From Betaproteobacteria bacterium UBA2293 (GTDB lineage: Bacteria; Pseudomonadota; Gammaproteobacteria; Burkholderiales; Rhodocyclaceae), in contig DDWF01000127.1 of the NCBI GenBank assembly GCA_002345845.1, positions 1 through 20,601 of the forward strand: a stretch of DNA of 20,601 nt. Reading direction: 5' to 3'. Every line of letters begins with the position of its first letter. Within the stretch, counting starts at the first letter, position 1. Both the position numbers and the translations under genes were made by a program. This document shows, piece by piece, positions 5,385 to 20,508 of the stretch. The notes under the pieces were generated by a model. It worked only from the letters and a program-made list of their open reading frames with translations. It was not told the origin of the DNA and did not search any database.

Positions 5385-7238
5385 TCAGAATGCCGCGTTC
5401 AGGGTCATGTAATAGAACCCGCGATCACGCAGAGGATCGTAGTTGGCATTCTTGTTGAAGAAGGTTGCCCCGACATCCAGCGTATATTTTTTCTGGTAAC
5501 TGAACTTGGCGCCGAGGCCCAGTGCCATGCGGTCTTCCAGGAACTGACTGTCGGCCGAAACACCCTTGACATCATGTGACCAGAAAATACTCGGTGTTAC
5601 CGCAACGCCAGCGAATACGTCGTTGTAGGTCACATCCAGCTTGGCACGGTAGCCCCAGGCGAAATTACTTACATAGCCGCTGTCATCACAGCCAGCCTTG
5701 GTGGTGTTCAGGCCTGCCGTGCAGGTATTGCCGCCGTAACGTGCATCACTGCCAGGACCGAAGATAAAAGCACGGTTGTAACGCAGATCGTTGGCGCCGC
5801 CGATGGACAGGTTGTTCCACTGAAAACCAGCTTCGGCGACGAAGATGTACTGATCACCACCGAGCAGCCGATTACCTGCCTTGACGGCATTGACCTGCAC
5901 CTGGTGAATATTGGCACGCGTATAACCCGGCAGGTAGCCGCTACCGCCGTTCAGGCCGGAAGAAGTAAAAGCGCCATTGCCATAAGGGCCGAACGGGATG
6001 GAAACTCCGGGAGCGACAGCCCCGGCAGCCCCTAGACCAGACATCAACAGGTCGTTGCCATCGATCTGCACCGCCACATCGCGCCGAGTACTCACTTCAC
6101 CGGCCACCGACCAACCCAAAAGGTTCGTCGCGGCGCTGACGCCGAAAGCCTTGACTGCCTCCGGATATTCCCACATGACATCGAACGGCATGCCGTTTTG
6201 TGCCCGACCATTGGCCAGATTGACGATCGAGACAGCTGGGGTACGGGAGTGGTAGCGCATGCCGTAGATGCCGAACTCGGTATCGAGCGCATCAACATTG
6301 AAGCGGTAGGCCAGACCGAATTGCCCCGAGTTACTCGGATCCTTGGCATCGACAGTATGCACATAGGCGCCCAGCGGCGTCGCTACGTTCTGGCTCGCCC
6401 CAGGCACAAGGCTGATCGCGTTGTCACAGGCACCAGCGTTGCGCGAGATGTTGCCAACGGCGACCGACCAATAGCTGCCGCAGCCGAGATCAAGCGGCGA
6501 ATTCTCGTACTTGAGCTGGTAGAAAAACTCCAGGCTGCCCGCGTCACCCAGGCTCTGGTTGGCGTACGCGATCGGCACCGGCAGGAAGACTTCCTTCAAC
6601 TGCGCACCCGGTTTGTGGAAGGACGGGACGTCGATCGGGTTGATCTGGTTGAGGCCCTGGACGAAGAGGCTCTCGCCCCAGTTGACCACCTGATTGCCGA
6701 GGCGGACCTGCAACGGCTTGCCGGCAATATCCCAAGTGTTATAGACATAGGCATCGAGGAGTGCGACGCCATCGTAGCGGGAGAGATTCTCAAAACCGCG
6801 GTCGGACAGCGGGGCGTTGCGGTAACCGTTGTTCTGGTTGCCATAATGTACGTCCTGGTGATTCAGGGTGTAGTCATACCAGGCCTTGGCACGGATCAGC
6901 GCCCCCATGCTCCCCTTCTGCACCTGGAGTTCGGTGAACCACTTGACCTGGGTGGTGAACTGATCGCCCTTCTTGTAGTTCACATTGCCTTCATCGACGG
7001 TATTCGGCGCCCGACCACCCGACAAACCGGCATGGGCGCCGCTGGCAGCTGAATAAAGATCCTTATCCGGATTATTGGCGCGCCAGGCAGTACCCAGCGA
7101 AACCGAGTTTTGCCAACTCCCCGTCCAACCATCGCCAAACTCGAAATCCACCGCATTTGCCTGGCCAGAAAAGGCCGCGGCCAATGCGGCAGCGACGCCA
7201 CTGACCACCAGCCCCGTGCTACGTTTTTGAATATTCAT
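5385..7238 (-). CDS. DUF1302 family outer-membrane beta-barrel protein
   Basis: This 617-residue protein starts with a signal peptide cleaved at about ANA|VDF (after residue 29). The mature N-terminus FEFGDGWTGSWQNSVSLGTAWR and the internal motif VNWGESLFVQGLNQINPIDV are typical of DUF1302. Alternating aromatic/polar strands and the C-terminal sequence TLNAAF, ending in Phe, fit a beta-barrel inserted by the BAM machinery. The frame extends 24 codons further upstream, but the ATG at 7238 has AGGAG seven bases before it and puts the signal peptide first. It is the first gene of the four-gene envelope operon. The barrel may pass or bind a hydrophobic molecule handled by the RND exporter; the substrate is unknown. 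Confidence 0.9.
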   Translation of the reverse strand: MNIQKRSTGLVVSGVAAALAAAFSGQANAVDFEFGDGWTGSWQNSVSLGTAWRANNPDKDLYSAASGAHAGLSGGRAPNTVDEGNVNYKKGDQFTTQVKWFTELQVQKGSMGALIRAKAWYDYTLNHQDVHYGNQNNGYRNAPLSDRGFENLSRYDGVALLDAYVYNTWDIAGKPLQVRLGNQVVNWGESLFVQGLNQINPIDVPSFHKPGAQLKEVFLPVPIAYANQSLGDAGSLEFFYQLKYENSPLDLGCGSYWSVAVGNISRNAGACDNAISLVPGASQNVATPLGAYVHTVDAKDPSNSGQFGLAYRFNVDALDTEFGIYGMRYHSRTPAVSIVNLANGRAQNGMPFDVMWEYPEAVKAFGVSAATNLLGWSVAGEVSTRRDVAVQIDGNDLLMSGLGAAGAVAPGVSIPFGPYGNGAFTSSGLNGGSGYLPGYTRANIHQVQVNAVKAGNRLLGGDQYIFVAEAGFQWNNLSIGGANDLRYNRAFIFGPGSDARYGGNTCTAGLNTTKAGCDDSGYVSNFAWGYRAKLDVTYNDVFAGVAVTPSIFWSHDVKGVSADSQFLEDRMALGLGAKFSYQKKYTLDVGATFFNKNANYDPLRDRGFYYMTLNAAF

Positions 7239-7402
7239 GTAACGTCTCCTCTCAGAATCATCTGTCAAGGCCGTGCCTACTGGCGCAACCCCGCCCGAAC
7301 CTCGGTGCAAAATAAGTATGCCTGCACATAATACACATTGCTACCAATTTCTTGTTATTTCCCATCGAACAAGCGGCGGGGTGTGTTGCGTTTGCTGCGA
7401 CT
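7239..7402 (-). promoter_or_regulatory. Leader and probable promoter region of the DUF1302-DUF1329-YCF48-RND operon
   Basis: The 164 bases between the acyl-CoA dehydrogenase stop and the DUF1302 start are AT-richer than the flanks around 7305-7365. A minus-strand TATTAT (7328-7333) could be a -10 box, but no good -35 lies 16-18 bases upstream. AGGAG at 7246-7250 is the DUF1302 ribosome site. I see no strong terminator for the preceding operon, so read-through from the acyl-CoA dehydrogenase gene is possible. Confidence 0.35.
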
Positions 7403-8569
7403 TCAATAGGACTTGGGCAGATCGAGCACCTTCTCGGCGATGAAGCACATAATCAGTTGTTCGGTGATCGGCGCCAGGCGGGTCACGGTGACTTCGCGCA
7501 GCAGGCGCTCGACGTGGTACTCCTTGGCATAACCGAAACCGCCATGGGTCATCACGGCCTGCAGCGCTGATTCGTAACCAGCTCGAGCGCCGAGGAACTT
7601 GGCCGTATTGGCTTCGGCACCGCAGGGTTTGTCGTTGTCGTACAGCCAGGCGGCCTTCATCGCCATCAGCCAGGCGGCCTCCAGCGCCATCCAGCGTTCG
7701 GCCAGCGGATGCTGGATACCCTGGTTCTGACCGATGGGCCGGTCGAAAACGGTACGCTCCTTGGCATAGCGGGTCGCGCGGCGCAGGGCGTCCTGGCCGA
7801 TGCCGATGGCTTCCACGGCGATCAGGATGCGCTCCGGGTTGAGGCTGTGCAGGACATACTTGAAGCCCTTGCCTTCCTCGCCAACACGGTCGGACTCGGG
7901 AATGAACAGGTCGTCGATGAAAATGGCGTTCGAGTCGACGGCCTTGCGTCCCATCTTCGGGATCTTCTTGACCTCGATCTTCGAGCGATCTAGGTCGGTA
8001 TAGAAAATGGTGATGCCGTCGGTCGGGCGCGCGCAATCTTCGAGCTTGGTCGTCCGGGTCAGCAACATGATCTTGTTGGCGACCTGGGCGGTCGAGGTCC
8101 AGACTTTCTGTCCACGCACGATGTAGCCGCCGGGAACACGCTCGGCAAAGGTCTTGATGGCCGTAGTGTTGAGGCCGGCATCCGGCTCGGTAAAGCCGAA
8201 ACAGCACTGGTCTTCACCGCTGATCAGGCGCGGAATCCAGCGCTGCTTCTGCTCCGGCGTACCGAAGACGACAATCGGGTGCGGCCCGAACAGGTTGATG
8301 TGCACCGTCGAGGTGGCGGCCATGCCGCCGCCATGGGAAGCCACCTCGTGCATCATCACTGCCGCCTCGGTCACCCCGAGGCCGGCGCCGCCATACTCGA
8401 CCGGCATGGTGATGCCGAGCCAGCCGGCATCCGCCATGGCACGATGAAACTCGCGGGGAAACTCCCCGTCTTCGTCGCGCTGCAACCAGTAGTCGTCGCC
8501 GAAACTGCGCATGACTGCCGCCACGCCGTCGCGAATGGCTTCATGATCCGAATTGCTAGAAAAATCCAT
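7403..8569 (-). CDS. Acyl-CoA dehydrogenase with isovaleryl/long-chain-type catalytic Glu position
   Basis: This 388-residue FAD enzyme introduces an alpha,beta double bond into an acyl-CoA in the cytoplasm. Visible family motifs are PVEYGGAGLG (56-65), the flavin-contact segment CCFGFTEPDAG (122-132), KVWTST (155-160), the dimer/FAD motif RTVFDRPIGQNQ (272-283) and HGGFGYAKE (342-350). The usual C-terminal base motif (YEG-T) is absent; that region reads RLAPITEQL. Instead Glu246 in NPERILIA aligns by eye with the base of isovaleryl- and long-chain acyl-CoA dehydrogenases, which suggests a branched or bulky substrate. A GCAGGA lies 9 bases upstream of the ATG. It is the third gene of the MaoC-lyase-dehydrogenase operon, 42 bases after the lyase. 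Confidence 0.92.
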   Translation of the reverse strand: MDFSSNSDHEAIRDGVAAVMRSFGDDYWLQRDEDGEFPREFHRAMADAGWLGITMPVEYGGAGLGVTEAAVMMHEVASHGGGMAATSTVHINLFGPHPIVVFGTPEQKQRWIPRLISGEDQCCFGFTEPDAGLNTTAIKTFAERVPGGYIVRGQKVWTSTAQVANKIMLLTRTTKLEDCARPTDGITIFYTDLDRSKIEVKKIPKMGRKAVDSNAIFIDDLFIPESDRVGEEGKGFKYVLHSLNPERILIAVEAIGIGQDALRRATRYAKERTVFDRPIGQNQGIQHPLAERWMALEAAWLMAMKAAWLYDNDKPCGAEANTAKFLGARAGYESALQAVMTHGGFGYAKEYHVERLLREVTVTRLAPITEQLIMCFIAEKVLDLPKSY

Positions 8570-8611
8570 GGTCTCTATTCCTGCTTAGGTTTTGTCTGGG
8601 GCCACCAGCAC

Positions 8612-9487
8612 TCATGAAAGGCCGGCCTGGGCCAGGGTTTTCATCGCCTGCACCAGATGCGGACGGTCGTACATTTTTCCGTTGATCCCCACCACGCCGG
8701 TTCCCGGCGCCTCGGCGAAGGCGGCGACGATCGAGCGCGCCACGCCAATATCCTCTTCGCTCGGGGTGTAGCAGCGATTGATGACATCGACCTGGTCGGG
8801 GTGGATGGCGATGCGCCCGAGAAAGCCGCGCCGCCGGGACAGCAGGCAATCGCGTTCGAGGCCGGCGGCATCGCGGAAATCGCCGTACAGCGTATCCACC
8901 GCCTGGGCCTCGGCAGCGGCCGCGGCATACAGCGCGCCGGAGCGCGCCTGCACGTAGGCGGCCGACAGTTCGCCGTCCTCCTCGCGGTTGCTAATCGAGC
9001 CGAGCGCCGCCGCCAGATCCTCGGCGCCCCAGGTGATACCCACCAGGCGCGGCGGCTTGCTGGCATAACTGAGCAGATTAAGCATGCCGGCGGCCGTTTC
9101 GGTGGCCACGACAACCACCTTGATCGACTGCGGCAACAGACCGGCGCGCACTTCCAGAACATCCAGGTAATGGCTCAGACGGAGCACCTCGGCGGCACCA
9201 TCGGCCTTCGGCAGGACGATGCCGTCGAGCCCCTCGCCGACCACCTGCGCCAGATCTGGCAATGCATCGGCCGTGCTCAGCGGGTTGATCCGGACAAAGC
9301 CCTTCCAGCTCCGCTGCCCGCAGGTCGCCGCCAGATGCTCGGCGGCCATCCGGCGCGCCAGCGGACGACGGCTTTCGGCCACCGAGTCTTCAAGATCGAG
9401 GATCAGCGCATCGGCTGACGAGGCGACGGATTTCTGCAGCTTTTTCTCGCTATCCGCCGGCACGAAAAGCATCGAACGTAGCTTCAT
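8612..9487 (-). CDS. HpcH/HpaI-family CoA-ester lyase (citrate-lyase-beta-like)
   Basis: This 291-residue TIM-barrel enzyme belongs to the CitE-like group, which cleaves 3-hydroxyacyl-CoA esters such as malyl-, citramalyl- or HMG-CoA by retro-aldol or Claisen chemistry. Family motifs are RSMLFVPA (4-11), DALILDLEDSV (26-36), the CoA/substrate arginine in FVRIN (Arg66), GIVLPKA (89-95), the metal ligand Glu130 in ATETAAGM, the second metal ligand Asp157 in WGAEDLAAALG, and IAIHPDQ (226-232). The ATG at 9487 overlaps the MaoC stop as ATGA, showing translational coupling; a longer frame to 9532 would overlap MaoC more deeply and lacks support. Coupling to a hydratase suggests that the hydratase makes the hydroxyacyl-CoA this enzyme splits. 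Confidence 0.9.
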   Translation of the reverse strand: MKLRSMLFVPADSEKKLQKSVASSADALILDLEDSVAESRRPLARRMAAEHLAATCGQRSWKGFVRINPLSTADALPDLAQVVGEGLDGIVLPKADGAAEVLRLSHYLDVLEVRAGLLPQSIKVVVVATETAAGMLNLLSYASKPPRLVGITWGAEDLAAALGSISNREEDGELSAAYVQARSGALYAAAAAEAQAVDTLYGDFRDAAGLERDCLLSRRRGFLGRIAIHPDQVDVINRCYTPSEEDIGVARSIVAAFAEAPGTGVVGINGKMYDRPHLVQAMKTLAQAGLS

Positions 9488-9948
9488 GCCAGCGGCTTCC
9501 GCAGCATCAGCGCCTGACGAACACAGATGCACACCACTTCGTCGTGCTGGTTGAGACCCTGGTGCCGGAAAGTGACAATCCCCTGCTCCGGGCGCGAGCG
9601 ACTGTCGCGCTTATCGACGACGGTCGTCACCGAGCGGATCGTGTCGCCGGCGAACACCGGCTTGGGAAACAGCACTTCGCTCATGCCCAGATTGGCAACC
9701 GTCGTCCCCAGGGTCGTATCCTGAACCGTCAGCCCGATGACCAAACCAAGCGTAAAAATGCTGTTGAACAACGGACGGCCGAACTCGGTCTGCTTGCAGT
9801 ACTCCGCATCAATATGAATTTGCGCGGGGTTGTAGGTAGCGCCGCAGAACCAGATGTTCTCGGCCTCGACCAGCGTGCGCCGGATCTCGTGCTCGAAGAT
9901 TTGCCCTGCTTCCAACTGATCGTAAAATTTGCCAGCCATGCTTTGCAT
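9484..9948 (-). CDS. MaoC-like (hot-dog fold) enoyl-CoA hydratase
   Basis: This 154-residue protein has the single hot-dog domain of MaoC hydratases. The signature segment is YNPAQIHIDAEYC, then TEFGRPLFNS, FTLGLVIGL and VFAGDTI. His45 is the expected catalytic histidine. The residue five before it, usually Asp in (R)-specific enoyl-CoA hydratases, is Asn40. The block from LFNSIFTLG through DTTLGTTVANLG to DSRSRPEQGIV resembles the subgroup that hydrates branched dicarboxylic enoyl-CoAs such as itaconyl- or mesaconyl-CoA (from memory, moderate certainty). A second ATG at 9939 has GGGA eight bases upstream and could be the real start, three codons shorter. It is the first gene of its operon, 25-35 bases after a good promoter. 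Confidence 0.88.
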   Translation of the reverse strand: MQSMAGKFYDQLEAGQIFEHEIRRTLVEAENIWFCGATYNPAQIHIDAEYCKQTEFGRPLFNSIFTLGLVIGLTVQDTTLGTTVANLGMSEVLFPKPVFAGDTIRSVTTVVDKRDSRSRPEQGIVTFRHQGLNQHDEVVCICVRQALMLRKPLA

Positions 9949-10174: not shown

Positions 10175-11335
10175 TCAGCGCAAGATCCTGCCCTGGCTGT
10201 TCAGGATGGTGATATCGACGAATTGCGACCCTTGCCGGACGCCAGGCCGGTAAGCGACGACATAACCGCCCAGATCGATCGGCGCCTGTTCCAGGGCCGT
10301 CACCAGATCGTCGGGCACAGGATTCGCCCCCGACCGGCGCAGCGCTTCGCTGGCGATCCGCGCCGCAATGTAGCCCTCCAGGCCATAGTACGAAGGCTGC
10401 GCCTCGGGATTGAGTGCCCTGATGGCGCGCAGATAGTCGCCGGTGACCTTGACCGTGTCGTTCCACGGATAGGGCGTGACCTGGGAAATGATGACGCCCT
10501 TGGCACCTGCGGCACCAAGTTCAGCGACGAGGAGATCGGCACCGACCAGGGAGACGGTGGCAAACTGTGTTGCCGCATTGATCTTCTTCAGGGCGCGGAT
10601 GGCGGCGGCAGCAGGCTTGTGCGTGGCGAGTACCAGCACGAGTTGCGGCGCCGCATCGGCAAGTTGCTTGATGACGCCGGGCGTGACGCCCTTGGCCGGA
10701 TCGAAGGCGACGCTCGCCACCGCTGAAAGCCGGTGCCGCTTCATGGCCTCGACGAATCCGTCCAACCCGGCCCGACCAAACGAATCGTCCTGATAGACGA
10801 CCCCGATCTTCGTCACCGCCAGCGGCACTGCGTGATCGATGATGACCGCCACCTCCTTCTCCACGGAGGCGCGGGTACTGAAGGCGTAGCGACCCGGTTG
10901 CAGATGAAGGGAACTGGTGCCGGTAGACAGGCCGATCAGGGGAATACCAGCCGTGCGGAACGCTTGCATCGCCTCGACGGTACCGGGCGAACCGAAGAAT
11001 CCGACCAGGGAAAGGACTTTCTCCTCATTGATCAGCCGGCGCGTATTGGCCAGCATGCGCTCGGTTTCGTAGCCATCGTCGAGGCTGACGACTTCGATTT
11101 TTCGGCCATGGATACCGCCTTCGGCATTGACCCGGGCAAAGCAGGCCAGGGCGCCTTCGCGCAAGGCCTTGCCGTAGGCCGCCACCGGTCCGCTCAATGG
11201 CAAGGACATGCCCAGCCGGATCGCTGCGCTCCCTTCGTTGCCCGGCGCGGCATTGGCCCGCTCCGGATAGCTGCCGATACCCATCGCTGTCGCGACGAAA
11301 ACGACGAACACCAGCCCACCCAACAATCTTTTCAT
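10175..11335 (-). CDS. Branched-chain amino acid-type ABC substrate-binding protein (LivJ-like), lone
   Basis: This 386-residue periplasmic protein has a signal peptide (MKRLLGGLVFVVFVATAMG, cleavage near ANA|APG after residue 29). A type I periplasmic-binding fold follows: IRLGMSLPLSGPVAAYGKAL, ARVNAEGGIHGRKIEVVSLDDGY, then LVGFFGSPGT and KIGVVYQDDSFGRAGLDGF. These are hallmarks of the Peripla_BP_6/LivJ group, which binds amino acids, short acids or aromatic acids. The frame extends far upstream into the CoA-transferase gene, so the ATG at 11335 is chosen for the signal peptide; its ribosome site is weak. No ABC permease or ATPase gene is present in the window, so it may share a transporter encoded elsewhere. 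It is the last gene of its operon, 83 bases after the CoA-transferase-like gene. Confidence 0.87.
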   Translation of the reverse strand: MKRLLGGLVFVVFVATAMGIGSYPERANAAPGNEGSAAIRLGMSLPLSGPVAAYGKALREGALACFARVNAEGGIHGRKIEVVSLDDGYETERMLANTRRLINEEKVLSLVGFFGSPGTVEAMQAFRTAGIPLIGLSTGTSSLHLQPGRYAFSTRASVEKEVAVIIDHAVPLAVTKIGVVYQDDSFGRAGLDGFVEAMKRHRLSAVASVAFDPAKGVTPGVIKQLADAAPQLVLVLATHKPAAAAIRALKKINAATQFATVSLVGADLLVAELGAAGAKGVIISQVTPYPWNDTVKVTGDYLRAIRALNPEAQPSYYGLEGYIAARIASEALRRSGANPVPDDLVTALEQAPIDLGGYVVAYRPGVRQGSQFVDITILNSQGRILR

Positions 11336-11418
11336 TTCTATTCTCGTTGTTAACCGCGCCCCCGGCTGAACCGGAGCTTGTCCTGAGCGAGCCGCAAGCA
11401 GCCTTCTGTGAACCGCTT

Positions 11419-12672
11419 TTACAGGCCGGCCGCGATGCCCGCCCACTCGGCAGCAAGCCCTTCCCGAAACGGCGGGGCAGCCAGTTCGATCAGCTTCTCG
11501 GCACGCTGGTGCAGCGACAGGTTCGCCAGTTCGGCGCTGCCGTGCTCGGTAACCACGCGATCGAGCATGTGACGCGGCGCCCCGACCGCGCTGCCGGTAC
11601 CGAGTCGGGGAACGATGCGGCTGATCGTCCCCTTGCCGGCCGTTGACGACAGGCAGAAGATTGCCCGCCCACCGGGCGCCAGTCGCGCCCCGGTAACGAA
11701 CGGCGGCATGCCGCCGACGCCGGCCAGCAGCCGACCGTCGAGGCAATCGCAATTGACCTGGCCGAAGAGATCGATCTCGACGGCGGCATTGATCGAAACG
11801 AAATTCGGAATCCGCGCGATGCTGCAGATATCGTGGGTTTCCCCGACACTGCGAAAGGCGAAGGCATCGTCTTCGGCCAGTCGCCGATAGAAGCTTTCGT
11901 CGCCGAGCGCCACGCCGGCGACGATCGAGGCGACGCCCTGAATCGTCCCAGACTCGCGCAGGCCGAGAATCTCCTCGGTCACCATGCCGGAATGCAGGCG
12001 CAACTGGCGATGCTCACGCAAGGAACGAACCACGGCACTCTGCATCTTGCCGATCCCCAGTTGCAGAGTATCGCCATCACGGACCATGGCGGCGACGTGG
12101 CGGCCGATGGCCAGCAGTTCCGGCCCGGGATCACCGCTCAGTTGCGTCACCAGCGGCGCGTCGACCTCACAGACGACATCGCAGTCGGCGCGCGCGATGC
12201 TGAAGCTGCCTCGGGTACGCGGCATGCGCGGATTGACGTGGGCCACTCGGATCCCTGCCCGCGCCCAGACGGCCGGCAGGAAGTCATGACAGACCCCGAG
12301 GCTCATCCGGCCGGCGGCATCCGGCGGACTGACTTGTGCCAGCGCCAGATCGATAGGCAATGACTGCAGGTCATGCCACACCCCGGTGTAATCGAGGGGC
12401 AGCAGGTCCACACGCCCCTGGCGCATCGGTTCCCGCAAATTGGGCTGAATGAAGTAGGCGCGTTGCCTGGCCTGCGGATGCAGGCCGGGATAATCGCCGA
12501 AATTGATGCCGGGAAAATGCACGCCGACGAAGCGTACCCCGGCCGCCTTGTCGGGATGGCGACAGAGGGCCTCGAAAAAAGCCAGCGATTCGCCGGAAGT
12601 GCCGGGGATGAAGACATTCATCCCCGGCCGCAGCATGGCGACGACCTGATCCAGGCACGCTTGCTTGTTCAT
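11419..12672 (-). CDS. Acetyl-CoA hydrolase/transferase family protein (Cat1/Cat2-like), atypical active site
   Basis: This 417-residue protein resembles 4-hydroxybutyrate/acetate CoA-transferases and acetyl-CoA hydrolases. Recognisable segments are LQLGIGKMQSAVV (203-215), VSINAAVEIDLFGQVNCD (292-309), LLAGVGGMPPFVTGA (315-329), SSTAGKGTISRIVP and the C-terminal VVTEHGSAELANLSLHQRA. Members move CoA between acids through a glutamyl-CoA thioester. Where characterised transferases read H-T-E-M, this protein reads LRLHSGMVTEE, so the expected catalytic Glu appears to be Gly229; Glu233 and Glu234 are close by. Its role could be CoA transfer, thioester hydrolysis or something else. An ACGGAGA ribosome site lies about 9 bases before the ATG. 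It sits 39 bases after the thiolase. Confidence 0.82.
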   Translation of the reverse strand: MNKQACLDQVVAMLRPGMNVFIPGTSGESLAFFEALCRHPDKAAGVRFVGVHFPGINFGDYPGLHPQARQRAYFIQPNLREPMRQGRVDLLPLDYTGVWHDLQSLPIDLALAQVSPPDAAGRMSLGVCHDFLPAVWARAGIRVAHVNPRMPRTRGSFSIARADCDVVCEVDAPLVTQLSGDPGPELLAIGRHVAAMVRDGDTLQLGIGKMQSAVVRSLREHRQLRLHSGMVTEEILGLRESGTIQGVASIVAGVALGDESFYRRLAEDDAFAFRSVGETHDICSIARIPNFVSINAAVEIDLFGQVNCDCLDGRLLAGVGGMPPFVTGARLAPGGRAIFCLSSTAGKGTISRIVPRLGTGSAVGAPRHMLDRVVTEHGSAELANLSLHQRAEKLIELAAPPFREGLAAEWAGIAAGL

Positions 12673-12711: not shown

Positions 12712-13914
12712 TCAGGCGCCGAGGCGGCCGATGATGGAGATGGCGCAGACATTCTGGTGCGGATGGCCGCCCAGATTCTGCGTCAGCCCGAGGTCGGCCT
12801 TGGCCAGTTGGCGCTCCCCGGCCCGGCCGAGCAACTGGAGGTAAACCTCGTAGACCATGCGCAGCCCCGAGGCGCCGATCGGATGACCGAAGCACTTGAG
12901 CCCGCCGTCGATCTGGCAGGGAATCGCCCCATCGCGGTCGTAGCGGCCTTCGAGAATGTCGTAGGCGGCGCGGCCGGGACGGCTCAACTGCAGGCCCTCC
13001 ATCAGCACCAGCTCGGTGATCGAGAAACAGTCGTGCACTTCGATCAGGTCCAGCGCAGCCGACGGGTCGGCAATGCCGGCTTCCTGGTAGGCACGGGCAG
13101 CGGCGACCTCGGCGGTACGGATCGAGGCACCGTCCCAGGTGCTGAACTGCGCCTCTTCGCCGTTGGACACCGACAGCTGCAGCGACTTCACGGTGATCAC
13201 GTCCTTCTTGCCGAGCTTTTTGGCGATTTCCGGCGTCGTCACGATGGCGCAGGCGGCACCGTCGCTGACCCCGGAGCAATCGTAGAGGCCGAGCGGCTCG
13301 GCGATGATCTTCGCCTTGAGCACGTCTTCCTCGGTGATCCGGTTACGCAGATGCGCCTTGGGATTGAGTACCGCGTTGTCGTGGCTTTTGACCGAGACGT
13401 GCGCCATCGCCCGTTTCAGTTCCTCGGGCGGGATCCCGTACTTGCTCTGATAAGCCGTTGCCAGCTGGGCGAAGGCGCCGGGGGCCGAACCGTTGGGCAG
13501 CCACAGGTCGGTGACCGTGCCGCGGGTACGGTGCGGCAAGCCGCCGTAGCCGGTGTCCTTGAGCTTTTCGACGCCAAGGGCGAGCACGATGTCGTAAGCG
13601 CCGGAGGCGACCGCATAGACGGCGCCACGCAAGGCTTCGGTCCCCGTCGCACAGGCATTCTCGACCCGGGTCACGGCGATGTTCTGCAGGCGCAGGGCCT
13701 GGGCCAGCGGCCCGGCCGTCTTGCCGACGTTGTTTTCTTCGAGGCAGACGCCCAGCCAGGCCGCTTCAATCTGCTTGCGCTCGATGCCGGCATCGGCGAT
13801 GGCCTCGGTAAAGGCCTCGAGCATCAGATCCTCGGCATTGTCCGACCAGCGCTCGCCAAACTTCGAGCAGCCCATACCTACGATCGCAACGCGATCACGA
13901 ATTCCGCTAGCCAT
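12712..13914 (-). CDS. SCP2-type thiolase (acetyl-CoA acetyltransferase family)
   Basis: This 400-residue thiolase releases acetyl- or propionyl-CoA from a 3-ketoacyl-CoA. The nucleophile is Cys88 in VENACATGTEALRGA. The other catalytic motifs are EVHDCFSITE (292-301) and GGLKCFGHPIGASG (337-350), with the active-site His344. The HDCF motif and the absence of the usual NxNGGAIAxGHP pattern mark the sterol-carrier-protein-type/archaeal group, whose members usually need a DUF35 (OB-fold) partner. The ATG at 13914 is one base after the stop of the HMGS-DUF35 gene and has AAGGA eight bases upstream. An upstream extension of the frame lies inside that gene and is rejected. The coupling points to a thiolase/DUF35 complex, as in BbsAB, Ltp2-type steroid thiolases and archaeal acetoacetyl-CoA thiolase. 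Confidence 0.92.
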   Translation of the reverse strand: MASGIRDRVAIVGMGCSKFGERWSDNAEDLMLEAFTEAIADAGIERKQIEAAWLGVCLEENNVGKTAGPLAQALRLQNIAVTRVENACATGTEALRGAVYAVASGAYDIVLALGVEKLKDTGYGGLPHRTRGTVTDLWLPNGSAPGAFAQLATAYQSKYGIPPEELKRAMAHVSVKSHDNAVLNPKAHLRNRITEEDVLKAKIIAEPLGLYDCSGVSDGAACAIVTTPEIAKKLGKKDVITVKSLQLSVSNGEEAQFSTWDGASIRTAEVAAARAYQEAGIADPSAALDLIEVHDCFSITELVLMEGLQLSRPGRAAYDILEGRYDRDGAIPCQIDGGLKCFGHPIGASGLRMVYEVYLQLLGRAGERQLAKADLGLTQNLGGHPHQNVCAISIIGRLGA

Positions 13915-13915: not shown

Positions 13916-15367
13916 TCAGTTTTCCTTGTCCTGGGGCAGTACGGTCGCTTTCCAGAAGTACCGTTTGAAGCCCCGCTGAGAGTCCGAATCCTTGATCCGG
14001 AAGACCATGCGCAACGGCACGCCGACCGCCAGTTCATCCGGTTCGCAATCGGTGAATTCCATCATTACCCGCGCCCCGCTGGCGAATTCGACATGGCCGA
14101 AAAGAAAAGGCGGACAGGGTTTGTACGACAGCCAGTCGCAGGTAAAGGAGCGCACCTTGGCCGCTTCGTCGAGCAGGACATGCGACTGCTGCGTATCGAC
14201 GGCCGTGCATTCCGGGTTGACGCAGACCCGCGATTTCGGGAACTGCACCGTGCCGCAGGCCGAGCACTTGCCGCCGGCGAAACGATTGACCATCTCCTCG
14301 CCGCGCCAGGCCGCGGAGAGCGCCGTCTTGTTGTCCATTTCGGCGCGCATGCCCCACTCCAGCGCCAACTGGTTGGTGAAGGAGAGATACTTGAAGTAGT
14401 TGCTTTCGACCCGGCCCTGCGTCAGCCACGGCGCCGGGGTTGCGGCCCTGCCCTGCCCGACCGTTTCGAGGACGATGACGTCGCAGCCGCTGCCGAACTG
14501 GACGAGCACGATCTTGCGGCCGGCCGGCGCGCTTTCCAGTTCGCGGGCCAGCATCAGCAGCGGATGGGCGGCGCCGGTATCGCCACAGGTTTCGAACAGC
14601 GTATCGGCAACCGCCTCCGGCCGGATGCCGGCCTTCTTCGCGACCACTTGATTGACCTTCATCAGCGCTGCCGGCATCAGGAAGGCGTCGACCTGATCGG
14701 CCTGCAGCCCGGCTTCGGCGAGCGCGCGGCGAATGACCGGCGGCACCAGCTTCAGGAAGCCCTCTTCGCGGACCCAGCGCTCTTCCCAGCCGTAATCGCC
14801 GTCACGCCCGGAGGCCCGGAAGTGATCGACAAAATCGATGGTTTCGCTGGCCGAGCCGCGCAGCACCGCAAGCGGCTCCCCGCGACCGACGGCGATGGCC
14901 GCCGCGCCATCACCGGCCAGCAGTTCGCCAGTACTGGCCGGCGTCGGAATGCGCCGCTCGCTGGCGACGATCAGCGACGTCGCCCCGCTATCACCACGCA
15001 GGGCACGCAGCAGTGCGGTCGAGCCGCAACGCAGGCTGCCGGCGGCATCCATGGACGAGAGCTGCGCGTCCAGGCCAAGGGCGGCGGCGAGCACCGAAGC
15101 ATTGAGCCGGTCGGCAAAGGGCAGCGTCGTCGAGGCCAGGGTCAGGTTGCCGACGCTGCCGACCGGGAAGCGACCGAGCACGCTGCGCCCGGCCTCGACC
15201 GCCATGGTCAGGACATCCTCGTCCCAATTGATCATCGACCGCGTGCCCTTGGCATTAGACTTCAGGCCCGGGGCCATCCAGCGGTGGGCCGCCGCAACGG
15301 CCGCCCGATCCAGGCGCAGGCGGGGCAGATAGCCCCCGACGCCAATGATTCCAAATCCTTGTTCCAT
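13916..15367 (-). CDS. HMG-CoA-synthase-like domain fused to a DUF35 zinc-ribbon/OB-fold domain
   Basis: This 483-residue protein has two parts. Residues 1 to about 305 are a thiolase-fold domain like archaeal HMG-CoA synthases: GFGIIGVGGYLPRLRL (4-19), the region around SLRCGSTALL (111-120), LLAGDGAAAIAV (149-160) and FGSGCDVIVLE (291-301). Residues about 320-480 form a DUF35 domain. A zinc ribbon (Cys368, Cys371, Cys382, Cys387; CX2C-X10-CX4C) precedes an OB-fold with FGHVEFASGARVMMEFTDC. By eye, all three HMG-CoA synthase catalytic positions are altered (see findings). The ATG at 15367 follows the OYE stop by 8 bases; its ribosome site is weak. The likely role is a partner that presents CoA substrates to the thiolase encoded next, or a new Claisen-type activity. 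Expected in the cytoplasm. Confidence 0.85.
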   Translation of the reverse strand: MEQGFGIIGVGGYLPRLRLDRAAVAAAHRWMAPGLKSNAKGTRSMINWDEDVLTMAVEAGRSVLGRFPVGSVGNLTLASTTLPFADRLNASVLAAALGLDAQLSSMDAAGSLRCGSTALLRALRGDSGATSLIVASERRIPTPASTGELLAGDGAAAIAVGRGEPLAVLRGSASETIDFVDHFRASGRDGDYGWEERWVREEGFLKLVPPVIRRALAEAGLQADQVDAFLMPAALMKVNQVVAKKAGIRPEAVADTLFETCGDTGAAHPLLMLARELESAPAGRKIVLVQFGSGCDVIVLETVGQGRAATPAPWLTQGRVESNYFKYLSFTNQLALEWGMRAEMDNKTALSAAWRGEEMVNRFAGGKCSACGTVQFPKSRVCVNPECTAVDTQQSHVLLDEAAKVRSFTCDWLSYKPCPPFLFGHVEFASGARVMMEFTDCEPDELAVGVPLRMVFRIKDSDSQRGFKRYFWKATVLPQDKEN

Positions 15368-15375: not shown

Positions 15376-16479
15376 TCACTTCCCTAACGAAACGGATGGC
15401 CCCGACCAGTACTGCGGACTGCACAGCATGTACTGACTGGGGAAAGGCAGGTTGACGCCGAGCTGCCGGGCCGCCTTCAAGGCCCAGCGCGGGTCGTAGA
15501 GCATGGCGCGACCGATGGCCACGCCGTCAACATGGCCGGCGGCGACGGCTGCCTCGGCCATCGCCGGGTCATCGAGCAAGCCGACAACCCGGGTAAACAG
15601 ACCGGTCTGCGCCCTGACTTGGGCGGCAAACTCGACGAGATATCCCGGTGCCGCCGGAATCCTGACGCCTTCGGCAATGGCACCGGCCGAGATACAGACG
15701 AAATCAACGCCGGCGGCTTTCAGTGCCGCGCAGACAGCCAGCGTGTCGGTGAATTCGAGGCCGCCCTCATGCCAGTCGCGGCAATTGAGACGCACGCCCA
15801 GCGGCTTGTTCTCCGGCCAGGCAGCCCGCACCCTGGCGACGACTTCGAGCGGAAAACGCATCCGGTTGTCCAGCGAGCCGCCGAATTCATCGCTGCGCCG
15901 GTTGCTGACCGGCGACAGGAAACTGTGCAGTAGATAGCCATGCGCCATGTGCAGCTCAAGATAGTCGAGGCCGGCGTGCCCCGCCCGCCGCGCGGCCCGG
16001 GCGAAGGCTGCGGCAATGCGCTCCATGCCGGCATGGTCGAGCTCCTGCGGCATCGCGCGGTTCTTGCCGAAAGCGATCGGGGACGGCCCGACGATGTCCC
16101 AGCCGCCCTCATGACTGGCCAGGCCTTCGCCGCCCCGCCACGGCTCGTGACAGGAAGCCTTGCGCCCGCCGTGATTGAGTTGCAGGCCGAGCCTGACCGG
16201 ACTCAGTCGCCGCAGATAGCCCAGCAGTACCGTCAGGGCCAACGTCTGCTCGTCGTCATACAGACCCAGACAACCACGGGTGATACGGCCTTCCGGCAGG
16301 ACCGCCGTCGACTCGATGGTGATGGCTCCAGCACCACCTACCGCCAGCGCACCGAGATGCTGCCAGTGCCAGTCGCCGACCTTGCCGTCCACGCCGCTGT
16401 ACTGACACATCGGCGCGACGAAGACGCGATTGCTCAGGCGCATTGACTTGATCTGCAGGGGAGAAAACAGCGTGCTCAT
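15376..16479 (-). CDS. Old yellow enzyme family NADH:flavin oxidoreductase (YqjM-like)
   Basis: This 367-residue single-domain FMN TIM-barrel enzyme reduces activated C=C bonds (enones, possibly dienoyl-CoA). Class-defining residues are visible: Cys25 and Tyr27 in VAPMCQYSG match the FMN-tuning Cys and the Tyr of YqjM-type enzymes. His177 and His180 in LHMAHGYLLHSFLSP are the substrate-binding pair. FGGSLDNRMRFPLEV (199-213), GVRLNCRDW (228-236) and VAIGRAMLYDP (320-330) complete the FMN site. It lacks the C-terminal iron-sulfur/FAD half of FadH-type dienoyl-CoA reductases. The ATG at 16479 has only a weak CGGA ribosome site. It is the first gene of the five-gene leftward operon and is divergent from the SDR gene. 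Confidence 0.9.
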   Translation of the reverse strand: MSTLFSPLQIKSMRLSNRVFVAPMCQYSGVDGKVGDWHWQHLGALAVGGAGAITIESTAVLPEGRITRGCLGLYDDEQTLALTVLLGYLRRLSPVRLGLQLNHGGRKASCHEPWRGGEGLASHEGGWDIVGPSPIAFGKNRAMPQELDHAGMERIAAAFARAARRAGHAGLDYLELHMAHGYLLHSFLSPVSNRRSDEFGGSLDNRMRFPLEVVARVRAAWPENKPLGVRLNCRDWHEGGLEFTDTLAVCAALKAAGVDFVCISAGAIAEGVRIPAAPGYLVEFAAQVRAQTGLFTRVVGLLDDPAMAEAAVAAGHVDGVAIGRAMLYDPRWALKAARQLGVNLPFPSQYMLCSPQYWSGPSVSLGK

Positions 16480-16720: not shown

Positions 16721-17650
16721 ATGAGCACACAAGGCAAATCGCAACTTCTCGCCGGCAAGGTCGCCCTGGTGACCGGCGCCGGTCGCGGCGTCGGTCGCGG
16801 CATCGCGTTGGAACTGGCAGCCGCCGGCGCCCGGGTCGTCGTCAACGACGTCGGCACCTCGCCGACTGGCGAAGGCTGCGATCTCTCGCCGGCTAATGAG
16901 GTGGTCGCCGAAATCCGGCGCAATGGCGGCGAGGCGGTGGCCGACTCGAACTCGGTCGCCGACTGGGACCAGGCCCATGCCATGGTGCAGACGGCGATCG
17001 ATGCCTTCGGTCGCATCGATATCGTCATCAATAACGCCGGCATCCTGCGCGACACGATCTTCCATCGCATGACCAAGGAAGACTTCGACTCCGTCATCAA
17101 CGTCAATCTCGCCGGCGTCTTCTATGTCAGCCGGGCCGCAGCGCCGCACTTCAAGGCCCAGAACAGCGGCTGCTTCGTGCATATCACCTCGAGTTCGGGA
17201 CTGGTCGGCAATTTCGGCCAGGCCAACTACTGCGCCGCCAAGCTCGGTGTCGTCGCCTTGTCCAAGGCCATCGCCATGGACATGCAGCGCTTCAACATCC
17301 GCTCCAACGCCGTCGCCCCCTGGGCCTGGACCCGGATGGTGAGCACCATCCCGGCCGAGACCGAGGCCGAGAAAAGGCGCGTGGAAGGCCTGCAGAAGCT
17401 GATCCCGGAAAAAATCGCCCCGTTCATCGCCGCCCTTGCCAGCGATCAGGCGGCCGAGGTCAACGGCCAGGTATTCGGCGTGCGCAACAACGAGATCTAC
17501 CTATTCTCGCAATCCCGCCCGATCCGCACCGCCCACACCGCCGACGGCTGGACGCCGGAAACGGTCATCGAACGGGTCTTCCCGATGTTCAAGAACGACT
17601 TCTATCCCCTGCATCGCTCCGGCGATGTGTTCACCTGGGACCCGGTGTAG
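16721..17650 (+). CDS. SDR family oxidoreductase, MFE-2-like (3-hydroxyacyl-CoA or hydroxysteroid dehydrogenase type)
   Basis: This 309-residue short-chain dehydrogenase has the Rossmann motif TGAGRGVGRG (18-27, G-x3-G-x-G), Asp43 after beta-2 (VVVNDVG) favouring NAD, INNAG (103-107), the catalytic serine region ITSSSG (155-160), and Tyr170 with Lys174 in YCAAK. The VVVNDVG strand and the long insertion after it resemble the 3-hydroxyacyl-CoA dehydrogenase domain of peroxisomal MFE-2 and related bacterial beta-hydroxyacyl-CoA/hydroxysteroid dehydrogenases. A C-terminal extension of about 50 residues goes beyond the usual 250-residue SDR core. The start is fixed by AGGAAG five bases before the ATG. 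It leads the rightward operon and probably supplies the 3-ketoacyl-CoA for the thiolase encoded on the opposite strand. Confidence 0.9.
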   Translation: MSTQGKSQLLAGKVALVTGAGRGVGRGIALELAAAGARVVVNDVGTSPTGEGCDLSPANEVVAEIRRNGGEAVADSNSVADWDQAHAMVQTAIDAFGRIDIVINNAGILRDTIFHRMTKEDFDSVINVNLAGVFYVSRAAAPHFKAQNSGCFVHITSSSGLVGNFGQANYCAAKLGVVALSKAIAMDMQRFNIRSNAVAPWAWTRMVSTIPAETEAEKRRVEGLQKLIPEKIAPFIAALASDQAAEVNGQVFGVRNNEIYLFSQSRPIRTAHTADGWTPETVIERVFPMFKNDFYPLHRSGDVFTWDPV

Positions 17651-17667: not shown

Positions 17668-18456
17668 ATGTCCGCCACCACGCCGTTGCTGCAGGGCGCG
17701 CCGAACTTTCGCGACTTTGGCGGCTACCGGGGAACGGACGGCCGCGTGGTCCGCGGCGGCCGCCTGTTTCGCTCCGAGGCCCTGGCCCGACTCACCGATG
17801 CCGACCTGCAGCAGGTGGCCGGTCTGGATATCCGGCTGCTCTACGACCTGCGCGCCGCCGACGAGCGGGCACGCGAACCGAATCGCTGGCCGGCGTCGCT
17901 GGCCACCGAAGCGGTGGCCGGACTCGAATCGGATGAACTGGCGGCAGTGCGCTTTTCCGGCTGGCGCCAGCGCCTCGGCGACCCGAGCTTCGATGCCGCC
18001 GCCGCCCGCCAGTGGATCCTGCATGCCTACGGCGGAATGCCGGCGCTGTTTGCCGGCCTCATCGCCACGCTGTTGCTCCGCCTCGGCGCGCCTGCCGCCC
18101 CGGCCACCCTGATCCATTGCACGGCCGGCAAGGATCGCACCGGCTTTGTCTGCGCACTGCTGCTGGCTGCCCTCGGCGTCCATCGCGACGACATCTTCAC
18201 CAACTACCTACTGACGCGCAAGCGTCGCCCGCCGGAGGACTTGCTGAAGGTGCTGCTCGGTGACGAGCTGGATCACCAATCTGCCGCGACCCGCGCCGCC
18301 CTGATGGTCATGGCCGACGTCCGTGAAGACTATCTGGGCACGGCGCTGTCACGCATCGATGCGGATTACGGTGGTATCGAACGCTACCTCACCGCGGCCT
18401 GCCAATTGGACGAGCAACGACGCGACAAACTTTTCGCCGCCCTGCTTGCCGGCTGA
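17668..18456 (+). CDS. Tyrosine/lipid phosphatase, MptpB-like (Y_phosphatase3)
   Basis: This 262-residue protein carries the phosphatase P-loop HCTAGKDRTG (150-159), with Cys151 as nucleophile and Arg157 binding phosphate. NFRDFGGY (13-20) and GRLFRSEAL (31-39) are the N-terminal signature of this family. The GKDRTG form of the loop is typical of the group containing mycobacterial PtpB, which acts on phosphotyrosine, phosphoserine/threonine or phosphoinositides. No signal peptide is visible, so it is probably cytoplasmic. It starts 17 bases after the SDR stop; the ribosome site is poor, so translation may depend on coupling. Its link to the catabolic genes is not explained by any known pathway I can name. 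Confidence 0.88.
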   Translation: MSATTPLLQGAPNFRDFGGYRGTDGRVVRGGRLFRSEALARLTDADLQQVAGLDIRLLYDLRAADERAREPNRWPASLATEAVAGLESDELAAVRFSGWRQRLGDPSFDAAAARQWILHAYGGMPALFAGLIATLLLRLGAPAAPATLIHCTAGKDRTGFVCALLLAALGVHRDDIFTNYLLTRKRRPPEDLLKVLLGDELDHQSAATRAALMVMADVREDYLGTALSRIDADYGGIERYLTAACQLDEQRRDKLFAALLAG

Positions 18457-18502
18457 GCCGGCGGCGGCGCCACGACCCGCATCCCGATACGGAGAAGCAT
18501 CG

Positions 18503-19213
18503 ATGAATCGCAAGAAAAAACCGCTGCCCCCGGGGCAGTTCGTCTATCCCAGCTTCGATCGCTTTGGACTTGGTCTGTTCGCCAAGCGCTTCCCGAACCA
18601 ACCGGAGCGCATCGAACTGAGCATCGGCGGAGATGTCGAGTCGCCGCTGACCGTCTCCGGCGAGCTAAGCAGCTTGCCGCGCGTCGAGCAGGTTTCCGAC
18701 TTCCACTGCGTCACAACCTGGTCCTGCCTGGATGTCCGCTGGAGCGGTGTACGCTTCTCGGATTTCTACGAGCAGATCGTCGCGCCGCGCGTCAAGCCGC
18801 AGGATGGCGCGACCTTCGTAGTCTTTCGCGGCCAGGACGGCTACGCCTGCAGCATGCAGTTGGCCGACCTGCTGGCGCCGGACGTATTGCTGGCCGATAC
18901 CGTCGACGGCCACGACCTGGGCATCGAGCACGGCGCCCCGTTGCGTCTGGTCGCCCCGGCCCACTATGGCTACAAGAACGTCAAGCACATCGCCGCCATT
19001 GAATTCTGGCGGGACCGCCGCTACTACCGTTTCCCTTTTCCCTACCCCCAACTGATGGATCATCCGCGCGGTCGGGTGGCCTTCGAAGAACGCGCCCGCT
19101 ATCTGCCGATATGGCTGGTCCGCCTGGTTTATCGCGCCCTGATGCCGGGCGCCCGCAGCAAGATGCGCAAGGCTTTGCTGGCCTATCGCAGCCGAGGCGG
19201 CAGCCGGGCCTGA
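18503..19213 (+). CDS. Sulfite-oxidase-like molybdopterin-binding protein, no export signal
   Basis: This 236-residue protein matches the molybdopterin domain of the sulfite oxidase/YedY (MsrP) family. IELSIGGDVESPLTVS is the usual start of the domain, and VSDFHCVTTWSC places the molybdenum-ligand cysteine at Cys69. WSGVRFSDFYEQI and HGAPLRLVAPAHYGYKNVKHI are further family segments. Unlike YedY, it has no Tat (twin-arginine) leader: the N-terminus is MNRKKKPLPPGQFVYP. It also lacks a heme or dimerisation domain. A cytoplasmic oxidoreductase of unknown substrate is therefore likely. The ATG at 18503 is preceded by GGAGA; a longer open frame to 18323 overlaps the phosphatase gene and is rejected. 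Confidence 0.85.
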   Translation: MNRKKKPLPPGQFVYPSFDRFGLGLFAKRFPNQPERIELSIGGDVESPLTVSGELSSLPRVEQVSDFHCVTTWSCLDVRWSGVRFSDFYEQIVAPRVKPQDGATFVVFRGQDGYACSMQLADLLAPDVLLADTVDGHDLGIEHGAPLRLVAPAHYGYKNVKHIAAIEFWRDRRYYRFPFPYPQLMDHPRGRVAFEERARYLPIWLVRLVYRALMPGARSKMRKALLAYRSRGGSRA

Positions 19214-19257
19214 GCCGGCCATCCGCGCAACTCATCTTCCCACGACAAAGGACCATC

Positions 19258-20508
19258 ATGCGCGCTGCCGCACTGACCAAGTTAATCCTGCTCCCGGCAA
19301 TCCTCGCCCCGGGGTTGGCTCTGGCCACCAACGGCTACTTCTCCCATGGCTTCGGCATCAAATCGCAGGGCATGGCCGGAGCCGGCATCGCCCTACCCCA
19401 GGACGGACTTGCGGCGGCGATCAATCCGGCGGGAACGGTTTTCGTCGGCAACCGGGTCGACTTGGGGATGGTTCTGGTTCGGCCGCAACGCAGCGCTGAA
19501 ATCAGCGGCAATCTGGCCGGCATGAACGGCGACTACGCCGGCAACGACACGCGGAATTTCCTGGTCCCGGAGATCGGCTACGTCGAACAACTGAGCCCGC
19601 GTCTGACCGCCGGGGTCGCCGTCTATGGCAATGGCGGGCTCAACACCGATTATGGGAACAATCCTTTCCGCGCCCTCGGGGCGACCGGCGCCGCTGGCGT
19701 CAACCTCGAACAACTGTTCATCTCGCCCTCGCTGGCCTGGAAGCTGGCCGACGAGCACGCCATCGGCCTGGCGCTCAATATCGCCTACCAGCGCTTCGAG
19801 GTGGAGGGCATCGCCCCCTTTGCGGCGGCCTCGTCCTCACCGGGCAATTTCACCAATCGCGGGGTCGATAGCGCCCTCGGCTGGGGCATTCGCCTCGGCT
19901 ATACCGGCAAGCTGAGCGACAACCTGACCCTGGGCCTGACCTGGGCCTCGAAGACGCGCAGCGGCGAGCTGGACAAATACAAGGGCCTGTTCGCCGAACA
20001 CGGCGGCTTCGACATCCCAGCCAACTACGGCCTCGGTCTGTCCTGGGCGGCGACCCCGGCGCTAACGCTGGTCGCCGACGTCAAGCGCATCGAATACGGC
20101 GACGTCAAGGCGCTCGCCAACCCGATCGGCAACTTGTTCGCCGGCCATGCCTTCGGCAGCACAAACGGCCCGGGGATGGGATGGCGGGACATTACGGCGG
20201 TCAAGCTAGGCATCCAGTACCGGCTCGCCGAGTGGACCCTGCGCGCCGGCTACAGCCACTCCTCGCAACCGGTTCCCAGCGACCAAACCTTGCTCAACAT
20301 CCTGACCCCCAGCGTCGTCAAGGACCATGTCAGCGTGGGCGCTACCTGGCAGTCGAGCCGGAGCGGCGAGTTAAGCCTGGCCTACACCTATGCCCTGAAG
20401 AACACCGTGCACGGCCGCAATTCCATTCCCGGCGCCTACGGCGGTGGCGAGGCCGATCTCACCCTGAAAGGCGACATCATCGGCATCGCCTACGGCTGGA
20501 AGTTCTGA
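19258..20508 (+). CDS. FadL-family outer-membrane transporter of hydrophobic compounds
   Basis: This 416-residue protein has a signal peptide cleaved at ALA|TNG (after residue 23). The mature N-terminus, TNGYFSHGFG, then SQGMAGAGIALPQDGLAAAINPAG, is the FadL/TodX pattern that forms the hatch region of the barrel. Alternating strands and a C-terminal GIAYGWKF, ending in Phe, indicate a BAM-inserted barrel. FadL proteins let fatty acids, aromatic hydrocarbons or similar compounds diffuse laterally through the outer membrane. The ATG at 19258 has AAAGGA five bases upstream and sits 44 bases after the molybdopterin gene; the longer frame to 19111 overlaps that gene. As last gene of the rightward operon it probably imports the substrate of the pathway. 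Confidence 0.92.
   Translation: MRAAALTKLILLPAILAPGLALATNGYFSHGFGIKSQGMAGAGIALPQDGLAAAINPAGTVFVGNRVDLGMVLVRPQRSAEISGNLAGMNGDYAGNDTRNFLVPEIGYVEQLSPRLTAGVAVYGNGGLNTDYGNNPFRALGATGAAGVNLEQLFISPSLAWKLADEHAIGLALNIAYQRFEVEGIAPFAAASSSPGNFTNRGVDSALGWGIRLGYTGKLSDNLTLGLTWASKTRSGELDKYKGLFAEHGGFDIPANYGLGLSWAATPALTLVADVKRIEYGDVKALANPIGNLFAGHAFGSTNGPGMGWRDITAVKLGIQYRLAEWTLRAGYSHSSQPVPSDQTLLNILTPSVVKDHVSVGATWQSSRSGELSLAYTYALKNTVHGRNSIPGAYGGGEADLTLKGDIIGIAYGWKF

Follow-up and report, generated by a model that had tools for sequence, protein, structure and literature searches.

The systems closest to the one described here combine a thiolase, a protein with the fold of 3-hydroxy-3-methylglutaryl-CoA (HMG-CoA) synthase (HMGS) and a DUF35 protein. 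In the archaeal thiolase/HMGS/DUF35 complex, DUF35 holds the thiolase and the HMGS together and the CoA site is shared (PMC12329534). For PhlACB, an antibiotic biosynthesis complex (Pseudomonas protegens 5M3K; Chromobacterium sphagni 9SKH), PMC6392133 describes that PhlA is missing the HMGS Cys and Glu, that residues of PhlC alone contact the substrate, that PhlA, PhlB and PhlC together form the walls of the cavities, and that the whole operon is needed. Here we analysed a stretch of 20,601 nucleotides from Betaproteobacteria bacterium UBA2293 (contig DDWF01000127.1; hereafter, the window), in which the same three parts are encoded by two genes, an HMGS-like/DUF35 fusion (working name HMGS35) and its partner thiolase (THL).

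13916..15367, minus strand: HMGS35, HMGS-like/DUF35 fusion of 483 residues (ATG at 15367, TGA at 13916-13918); HMGS-like domain at about residues 4-335, zinc ribbon at 361-387, OB fold at 402-457
12712..13914, minus strand: THL, SCP2/archaeal-type thiolase, over the NF004810 cut-off (657 of 403 bits), with Cys88, His294, Cys296 and His344

Our analysis makes it likely that the two gene products form one complex, a beta-ketoacyl-CoA thiolase in which HMGS35, with its fused DUF35, would be the non-catalytic subunit and provide a scaffold or part of a pocket. The substrates of the complex in this bacterium would probably be terpenoids. No description of the fused HMGS-like/DUF35 family was found in the titles or abstract openings of the open-licence papers listed by our literature searches.

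Catalytic residues of HMGS35 and its relatives

The reading frame and coordinates given for HMGS35 in a preliminary description of the window were correct, and the proposed fusion was borne out by its Pfam domains and by alignment with HMGS-fold proteins. Three Pfam models matched over their cut-offs, ACP_syn_III_C (216-295), zf-ChsH2 (361-387) and OB_ChsH2_C (402-457). HMGS35 thus has both Pfam domains of the ChsH2-type DUF35 proteins, together with the four zinc cysteines (368/371/382/387) of a ribbon that had been called intact and is so. The models for HMGS itself scored far under their cut-offs (NF003274, 124.7 of 244 bits; TIGR00748, 74.8 of 353 bits), and HMGS35 shares with HMG-CoA synthases the fold, and neither the catalytic residues nor the model score.

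Relatives were collected in three ways. A protein database search with HMGS35, in which scoring was limited to candidates sharing most words, gave 4,244 matches, and the best 120 of these plus the query form the database set (n = 121). A scan of genome contigs gave 80 loci (query excluded) with 44-99% identity to HMGS35. A motif-independent survey covered 249 genomes, drawn evenly from the phylum, with two profile searches, one using a family profile and one using the archaeal HMGS model at E 1e-15. The alignment controls were the archaeal HMGS 6ESQ, two PhlA, MucA, two bacterial HMGS (L104 and L106) and the FabH proteins (beta-ketoacyl-acyl carrier protein (ACP) synthase III, KAS III) of L107 and L112.

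HMGS uses a Cys as acyl carrier, together with a Glu and a His. In the alignment with the controls, the Glu column of HMGS35 is Thr80, the Cys column is Leu112 and the His column is Pro232. The three columns read Glu/Cys/His in 6ESQ, L104 and L106, Thr/Cys/His in both FabH, Cys/Gly/Gln in PhlA and Cys/Glu/Gln in MucA. The preliminary description had left the Glu position between Thr80 and Thr81, which the alignment with 6ESQ, PhlA, HMGS and FabH settles as Thr80, and had placed the Cys position at Leu112, which the same alignment supports. Its His position, Leu230, was two residues off and is ruled out: the His of 6ESQ, both HMGS and both FabH falls at Pro232, where a phmmer alignment with 6ESQ also puts it. 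The conclusion that the whole HMGS triad is absent is unaffected by this shift. The Cys-His-Asn triad of KAS III is also missing, residues 112/232/263 being Leu/Pro/Asp in HMGS35 versus C/H/N in the FabH of L107 and L112.

The family alignment that had been proposed as a check gave a consistent picture. Across the 80 loci, column 80 is Thr throughout, column 112 is variable and never Cys (Q38 L24 A9 P2 S2 M2 R2 T1), and column 232 is nearly always Pro (P78 A1 G1). The best 120 of the 4,244 matches plus the query read T117 N3 R1 in column 80 and P117 A2 S2 in column 232, with no Cys in column 112. The family profile found nine copies in six of the 249 genomes; column 80 is Thr in 9/9, column 112 is Cys in none, and column 232 is P7 A1 H1, the sole His belonging to L171. 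The entropy of column 112 exceeds that of 66% of the columns of the HMGS-like domain, while columns 80 and 232 hardly vary. The zinc cysteines are present in 121/121 database proteins, each is kept in 78 to 80 of the 80 loci, and all four are kept in 7/9 survey copies. Neither of the two results that the preliminary description had named as refuting its reading appeared: a full Glu/Cys/His triad was found in none of the 80 loci, 121 database proteins and nine survey copies, L171 coming nearest. Judged from these sequences, the triad loss is a family-wide trait and not the decay of one gene, in line with the earlier view that the gene is conserved as a protein and unlikely to make HMG-CoA.

The archaeal HMGS model matched 41 of the 249 genomes. 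The two matches inspected, L104 and L106, keep the full triad; neither matched the HMGS35 query at E 1e-4, and no DUF35-like end was seen in them by eye. In a small tree, 27 members of the HMGS35 family were split from all reference proteins with support 1.000, and the support for PhlA/MucA versus HMGS as the nearer group was 0.06, so one and two losses of the triad are indistinguishable in it. The triad-bearing HMGS of L104 lies, by eye, in one 757-residue open frame with a mevalonate kinase-like part, a possible fusion of two mevalonate-pathway enzymes. Segment 337-353 of HMGS35 was considered as an argument for an interface and set aside: it is highly conserved in a 60-sequence alignment, but across the 80 loci 82 of the 455 windows rank above it.

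The adjacent thiolase and the known complexes

The stop codon of HMGS35 is separated from the ATG of the thiolase by a single base. Cys88, His294, Cys296 and His344 of the thiolase are kept in 71/71 homologues (full-length copies; five truncated copies were left out), and the motifs HDCF (294-297) and GHP (343-345) are invariant in the same set, as in SCP2-type thiolases. We take Cys88 to be the nucleophilic Cys, and HDCF and GHP to be the SCP2-type catalytic motifs. The Sal aldolase is described with a YDCY motif and an essential Cys304 (PMC12329534); the partner thiolase reads HDCF, not YDCY, in all 71.

The pairing of the two genes extends across the family. A thiolase was found in 76/80 loci and lies directly behind HMGS35 in 75, including L014, where 18 bases separate the fusion from the thiolase match; in L053 the distance from HMGS35 is 1.8 kb. 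Three of the four loci without a thiolase are on contigs that end within 274 bases. In the 249-genome draw, the HMGS35 profile and NF004810 (over cut-off) matched the same six genomes, with nine copies each, and 8/9 of the survey copies are adjacent to the thiolase with gaps of 6-125 bases. The chance coincidence of two such 6-of-249 sets is 3e-12, or 1e-10 without the centre genome, which was known to hold both, kinship being ignored in both figures. The identities of HMGS35 and thiolase are correlated over all pairs of the 71 loci (r 0.88), which can be explained by shared descent and is therefore not counted as evidence of binding. This pairing and the intact thiolase residues, like the triad loss, are read from the genes themselves, and the HMGS-like, DUF35 and thiolase parts are encoded together, as expected for members of the thiolase/HMGS-like/DUF35 complexes (archaeal complex, PhlACB, MucABC).

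The folds of HMGS35 and of the thiolase were taken from predicted structures. In that of HMGS35, the HMGS-like domain has its full length, and the confidence of the prediction is good. A Foldseek search placed the archaeal thiolase/HMGS/DUF35 complex as the first match for both proteins, and in the VIA-align ranking of HMGS35 it was tied with PhlA. Both matches are of single predicted chains. By PDB profile, the best match of HMGS35 was PhlA (139 and 131 bits) versus 109 bits for the archaeal HMGS, and the best PDB sequence match of its C-terminal part was the DUF35 chain of the archaeal complex. The thiolase scored 203 and 200 bits against archaeal acetoacetyl-CoA thiolases versus 85 and 72 bits against PhlC.

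PhlACB is the closest precedent for the pair. Both have an HMGS-like subunit without the catalytic residues (Cys/Gly/Gln in PhlA, Thr/Leu/Pro in HMGS35), a DUF35 part and a thiolase, which in PhlACB alone carries catalysis (PMC6392133). Unlike PhlACB, HMGS35 joins the HMGS-like and DUF35 parts in one polypeptide, its thiolase is nearer to the archaeal thiolases than to PhlC, and its setting looks like CoA-based catabolism. The archaeal complex has the same three parts, here in two genes, and is the top structural match; unlike HMGS35, in which DUF35 is fused, its HMGS has Glu, Cys and His and makes HMG-CoA. MucABC (Streptococcus macacae, 9VBO/9VBT) is more distant in sequence (87 bits) and consists of separate chains. 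To our knowledge, the benzoylsuccinyl-CoA thiolase BbsAB and the Ltp2/Sal-DUF35 aldolases lack an HMGS-like subunit. They resemble the pair in their fold matches and in being catabolic systems in which a DUF35 partner accompanies a thiolase fold, and the portion of PMC12329534 that sets them against the archaeal complex and PhlACB mentions no HMGS-like subunit for them. The combination of a live thiolase with a dead HMGS-like subunit is already known from PhlACB and, judged by the residues, from MucABC. What sets HMGS35 apart is its fusion to DUF35, a two-gene pairing that is all but obligate among the genomes analysed, and its catabolic context.

Gene neighbourhood and a probable link to monoterpene breakdown

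HMGS35 and the thiolase lie in a minus-strand run of closely spaced genes, and a dehydrogenase gene lies next to it on the plus strand.

16721..17650, plus strand: SDR (short-chain dehydrogenase/reductase) dehydrogenase, with an at least 50% identical homologue in 31/80 HMGS35 loci
15376..16479, minus strand: NADH:flavin oxidoreductase of the old yellow enzyme type, the next gene upstream of HMGS35
11419..12672, minus strand: acetyl-CoA hydrolase/transferase family CoA transferase, which comes after the two genes in other loci as well: L001, L002 (Azoarcus Aa7), L003 and L004 (Castellaniella)
about 10175-11338, minus strand: periplasmic binding protein
9484..9948, minus strand: MaoC-type hydratase, RipB-like, under the model cut-off (131.5 of 340 bits)
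8612..9487, minus strand: CitE/RipC-type C-C lyase (HpcH_HpaI), RipC-like, under the cut-off (152.6 of 375 bits)
7403..8569, minus strand: acyl-CoA dehydrogenase

The closest named relative, Betaproteobacteria bacterium HGW-Betaproteobacteria-12 (L001), a metagenome-assembled genome, is 99% identical in HMGS35 and shares the gene order. Locus L004 is from Castellaniella defragrans strain DSM 12141, presumably not strain 65Phen. Read by eye, its open frames are, in order, a pair of FAD-oxidoreductase genes with 28% mutual identity, a thiolase, regulators and others, HMGS35, the thiolase, a CoA transferase and electron-transfer flavoproteins. This order matches that of CDM25289-25302 (PMC4109377, Table 1), where ctmB and ctmA, which encode limonene dehydrogenase, come first. 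The synteny suggests that CDM25298 is the HMGS35 of C. defragrans. CDM25298 ("hypothetical protein") and CDM25299 ("acetyl-CoA acetyltransferase") are given in PMC4109377 as identified only in alpha-phellandrene-grown cells, and neither is mentioned in the main text of PMC5876002.

The cluster in the window resembles the monoterpene island of C. defragrans. By annotation and neighbours, window genes have counterparts in the PMC4109377 table for a molybdopterin oxidoreductase, a tyrosine phosphatase, an NADH:flavin oxidoreductase, a 3-hydroxyacyl-CoA dehydrogenase, an (R)-specific enoyl-CoA hydratase, a citrate lyase and an acyl-CoA dehydrogenase. On the same grounds, the SDR dehydrogenase is likely the counterpart of CDM25246 (3-hydroxyacyl-CoA dehydrogenase).

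Genes of the BadH and BadI types (MrcD/MrcE-like) were found in L005 under their model cut-offs (329 of 431 and 405 of 468 bits). Such genes occur in 15/80 loci and in 14 of the 46 loci of at least 19 kb, and in G001, G002 and G003 they lie elsewhere in the genome than the HMGS35 locus. The BadI-type protein of G001 is 90% identical to that of Aromatoleum toluolicum, and because G001 carries it, a ring-cleavage route is likely present there.

The dehydrogenase, lyase and hydratase of the 7403-9948 block could dehydrogenate, hydrate and cleave a 3-alkylglutaryl-CoA via a tertiary alcohol, and the acyl-CoA dehydrogenase of this block is 85-87% identical in L013, L018 and L023. At 429-7310, genes for an MMPL/RND transporter, a YCF48-like protein, DUF1329 and DUF1302 stand in a row and probably handle hydrophobic compounds at the cell envelope. 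Positions 17668-20508 encode a tyrosine-phosphatase-like protein, a molybdopterin oxidoreductase and a FadL/TodX-type porin; for the first two, the monoterpene island of C. defragrans holds genes of matching annotation.

Proposed role and alternative readings

The preliminary description had offered a non-catalytic thiolase-fold subunit as one possibility. The family-wide triad loss, the pairing with an intact thiolase, the match to thiolase/HMGS/DUF35 complexes and the PhlA precedent support it well. The HMGS-like domain would keep the fold and not the chemistry, and the fused DUF35 would take the bridging role that a separate DUF35 protein has in the archaeal complex and in PhlACB. HMGS35 may bind the adjacent thiolase 1:1, probably in a hetero-octamer by analogy with Phl(A2C2)2B4. 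All bond breaking would take place at the Cys88 site of the thiolase, and the former HMGS pocket, as an inert cavity, may hold the acyl chain or the CoA of bulky substrates. The substrate here would most likely be a branched beta-ketoacyl-CoA of monoterpene breakdown, for example 3-oxo-5-isopropenylpimeloyl-CoA or 4-methyl-3-oxopent-4-enoyl-CoA.

A catalytic role has been published for a protein that may be related. LrcC, an HMGS-superfamily protein of the limonene ring-cleavage operon of Syntrophobacteraceae LiM6, was proposed in 2025 to cleave 3-hydroxy-3-isopropenylglutaryl-CoA, and the next name in the series, LrcD, denotes a thiolase (PMC12583861). The likeness lies in a limonene operon that encodes both a thiolase and a protein of the HMGS superfamily; it comes from the description in that source and makes LrcC a candidate relative only. 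It is distinctly unlikely that HMGS35 itself catalyses a cleavage of this type: the pocket keeps the polar residues Thr80, Asp107, Ser/Thr111, Lys/Arg113 and Glu148, but none of the 80 loci and 121 proteins has the Glu, the Cys or the His, and enzymes of types suited to forming and cleaving such a tertiary alcohol are encoded in the cluster, namely a CitE/RipC-type lyase and a RipB-type hydratase (both under cut-off). The itaconate enzymes make and cut citramalyl-CoA. In the window, the acyl-CoA dehydrogenase, the RipB-like hydratase and the CitE/RipC-like lyase could in like manner produce and split the tertiary alcohol; the 3-oxo acid formed, once activated to its CoA ester, would be the substrate of the thiolase pair. 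If LrcC is a member of the HMGS35 family, the lost triad argues against LrcC as the cleaving enzyme, which we raise as a question and not as a correction.

A PhlACB-like C-acyltransferase acting on a carbon nucleophile, in place of a degradative thiolase, would fit the PhlA profile match and the missing triad of both HMGS-like subunits. We consider it unlikely, given that the thiolase half is nearer to archaeal acetoacetyl-CoA thiolases than to PhlC and that the neighbours are beta-oxidation, transport and CoA-transfer genes, a context that also speaks against the CoA-independent C-acylation of phenolics performed by PhlACB. The HMGS-like domain evolves faster than the partner (mean pairwise identity 52% versus 71% for the thiolase), as would a decaying, functionless remnant held by its fusion to a useful DUF35; yet the domain is full length and well predicted, the DUF35 part is hardly more conserved (56%), and the 12 most conserved residues of HMGS35 fall within the HMGS-like domain, making such decay highly improbable. 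The other chemistry that the preliminary description had allowed for Cys114 is not supported. An acyl transfer by Cys114 or another pocket residue could point to the position of Cys114 two residues past the old nucleophile column, to the Ser/Thr of column 111 (S70 T10) and the Thr of column 80 in 80/80 loci, and to the divergent L171, which pairs Cys114 with a His in the His column. Cys114 is, however, found in only 6/121 database proteins and 3/80 loci and is elsewhere mostly Ala, the His column is Pro in the window protein, and columns 109-115 hold no other Cys across the 80 loci. Cys114 was ruled out as an alternative nucleophile on this conservation, and the acyl-transfer reading as a whole is barely credible.

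Several observations weigh against the scaffold or pocket role or limit its reach. The 80-locus scan was seeded with the motifs WEERW and WDED, which biases the conservation and could hide triad-bearing relatives. Columns 80 and 232 are nearly invariant, and Ser/Thr111, Lys/Arg113 and Glu148 are conserved in the 80 loci; by sequence, these pocket residues may leave room for another activity. A His at position 228, which precedes the His column by four residues, is present in 91/121 proteins and 54/80 loci; it was considered as a shifted catalytic His and rejected, being Ala in the window protein. L171 (G195), at 41% identity the most divergent of the nine survey copies, has a His in column 232 together with Cys114 and is without the zinc cysteines, possibly a return or a relic of chemistry; it also has Thr and not Glu in column 80, Arg in column 112 and YEERF in place of WEERW, and the thiolase still adjoins. 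L046 has no thiolase in the 1.5 kb downstream of HMGS35, and in G151 the two genes are on different contigs. Gene pairing is no proof of binding, and the predictions cover single chains. For the terpenoid assignment, BadH/BadI-type genes are absent from 32/46 loci of 19 kb or more, and G001, a genome that may be incomplete, gave no match to one limonene-dehydrogenase-like query. Monoterpenes may not be the general substrate of the pair, which may have other substrates in other bacteria.

A wider version of the scaffold or pocket role, which we put forward only tentatively, is a two-gene machine widespread in Proteobacteria. In it the HMGS would have become an obligate pseudoenzyme, whose dead site, linked to the thiolase through DUF35, would hold the acyl chain or CoA and so allow the thiolase to cut bulky, branched terpenoid and other alicyclic beta-ketoacyl-CoAs. 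If this is true and LrcC belongs here, the limonene cleavage assigned to LrcC would fall to a different enzyme, for instance a CitE-type lyase. A large number of proteins now called "HMG-CoA synthase" or "beta-ketoacyl-ACP synthase III" would also be misnamed: several of the best 120 of the 4,244 matches carry source names such as hydroxymethylglutaryl-CoA synthase and 3-oxoacyl-ACP synthase, and the fused, triad-less proteins among the matches would be thiolase partners rather than enzymes. The HMGS35-thiolase pair is a specific candidate for a thiolytic step of monoterpene breakdown, which suggests a function for the C. defragrans "hypothetical protein" CDM25298, recorded in PMC4109377 only from terpene-grown cells.

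Two further observations concern the diversity of the family. Of the four zinc cysteines, one member (L108/L167, in G151) has just one. Three HMGS35-thiolase pairs (L164, L170 and L172) are present in the genome of Aromatoleum toluolicum (G004, with locus L005), and two of them lie about 11 kb apart on one contig.
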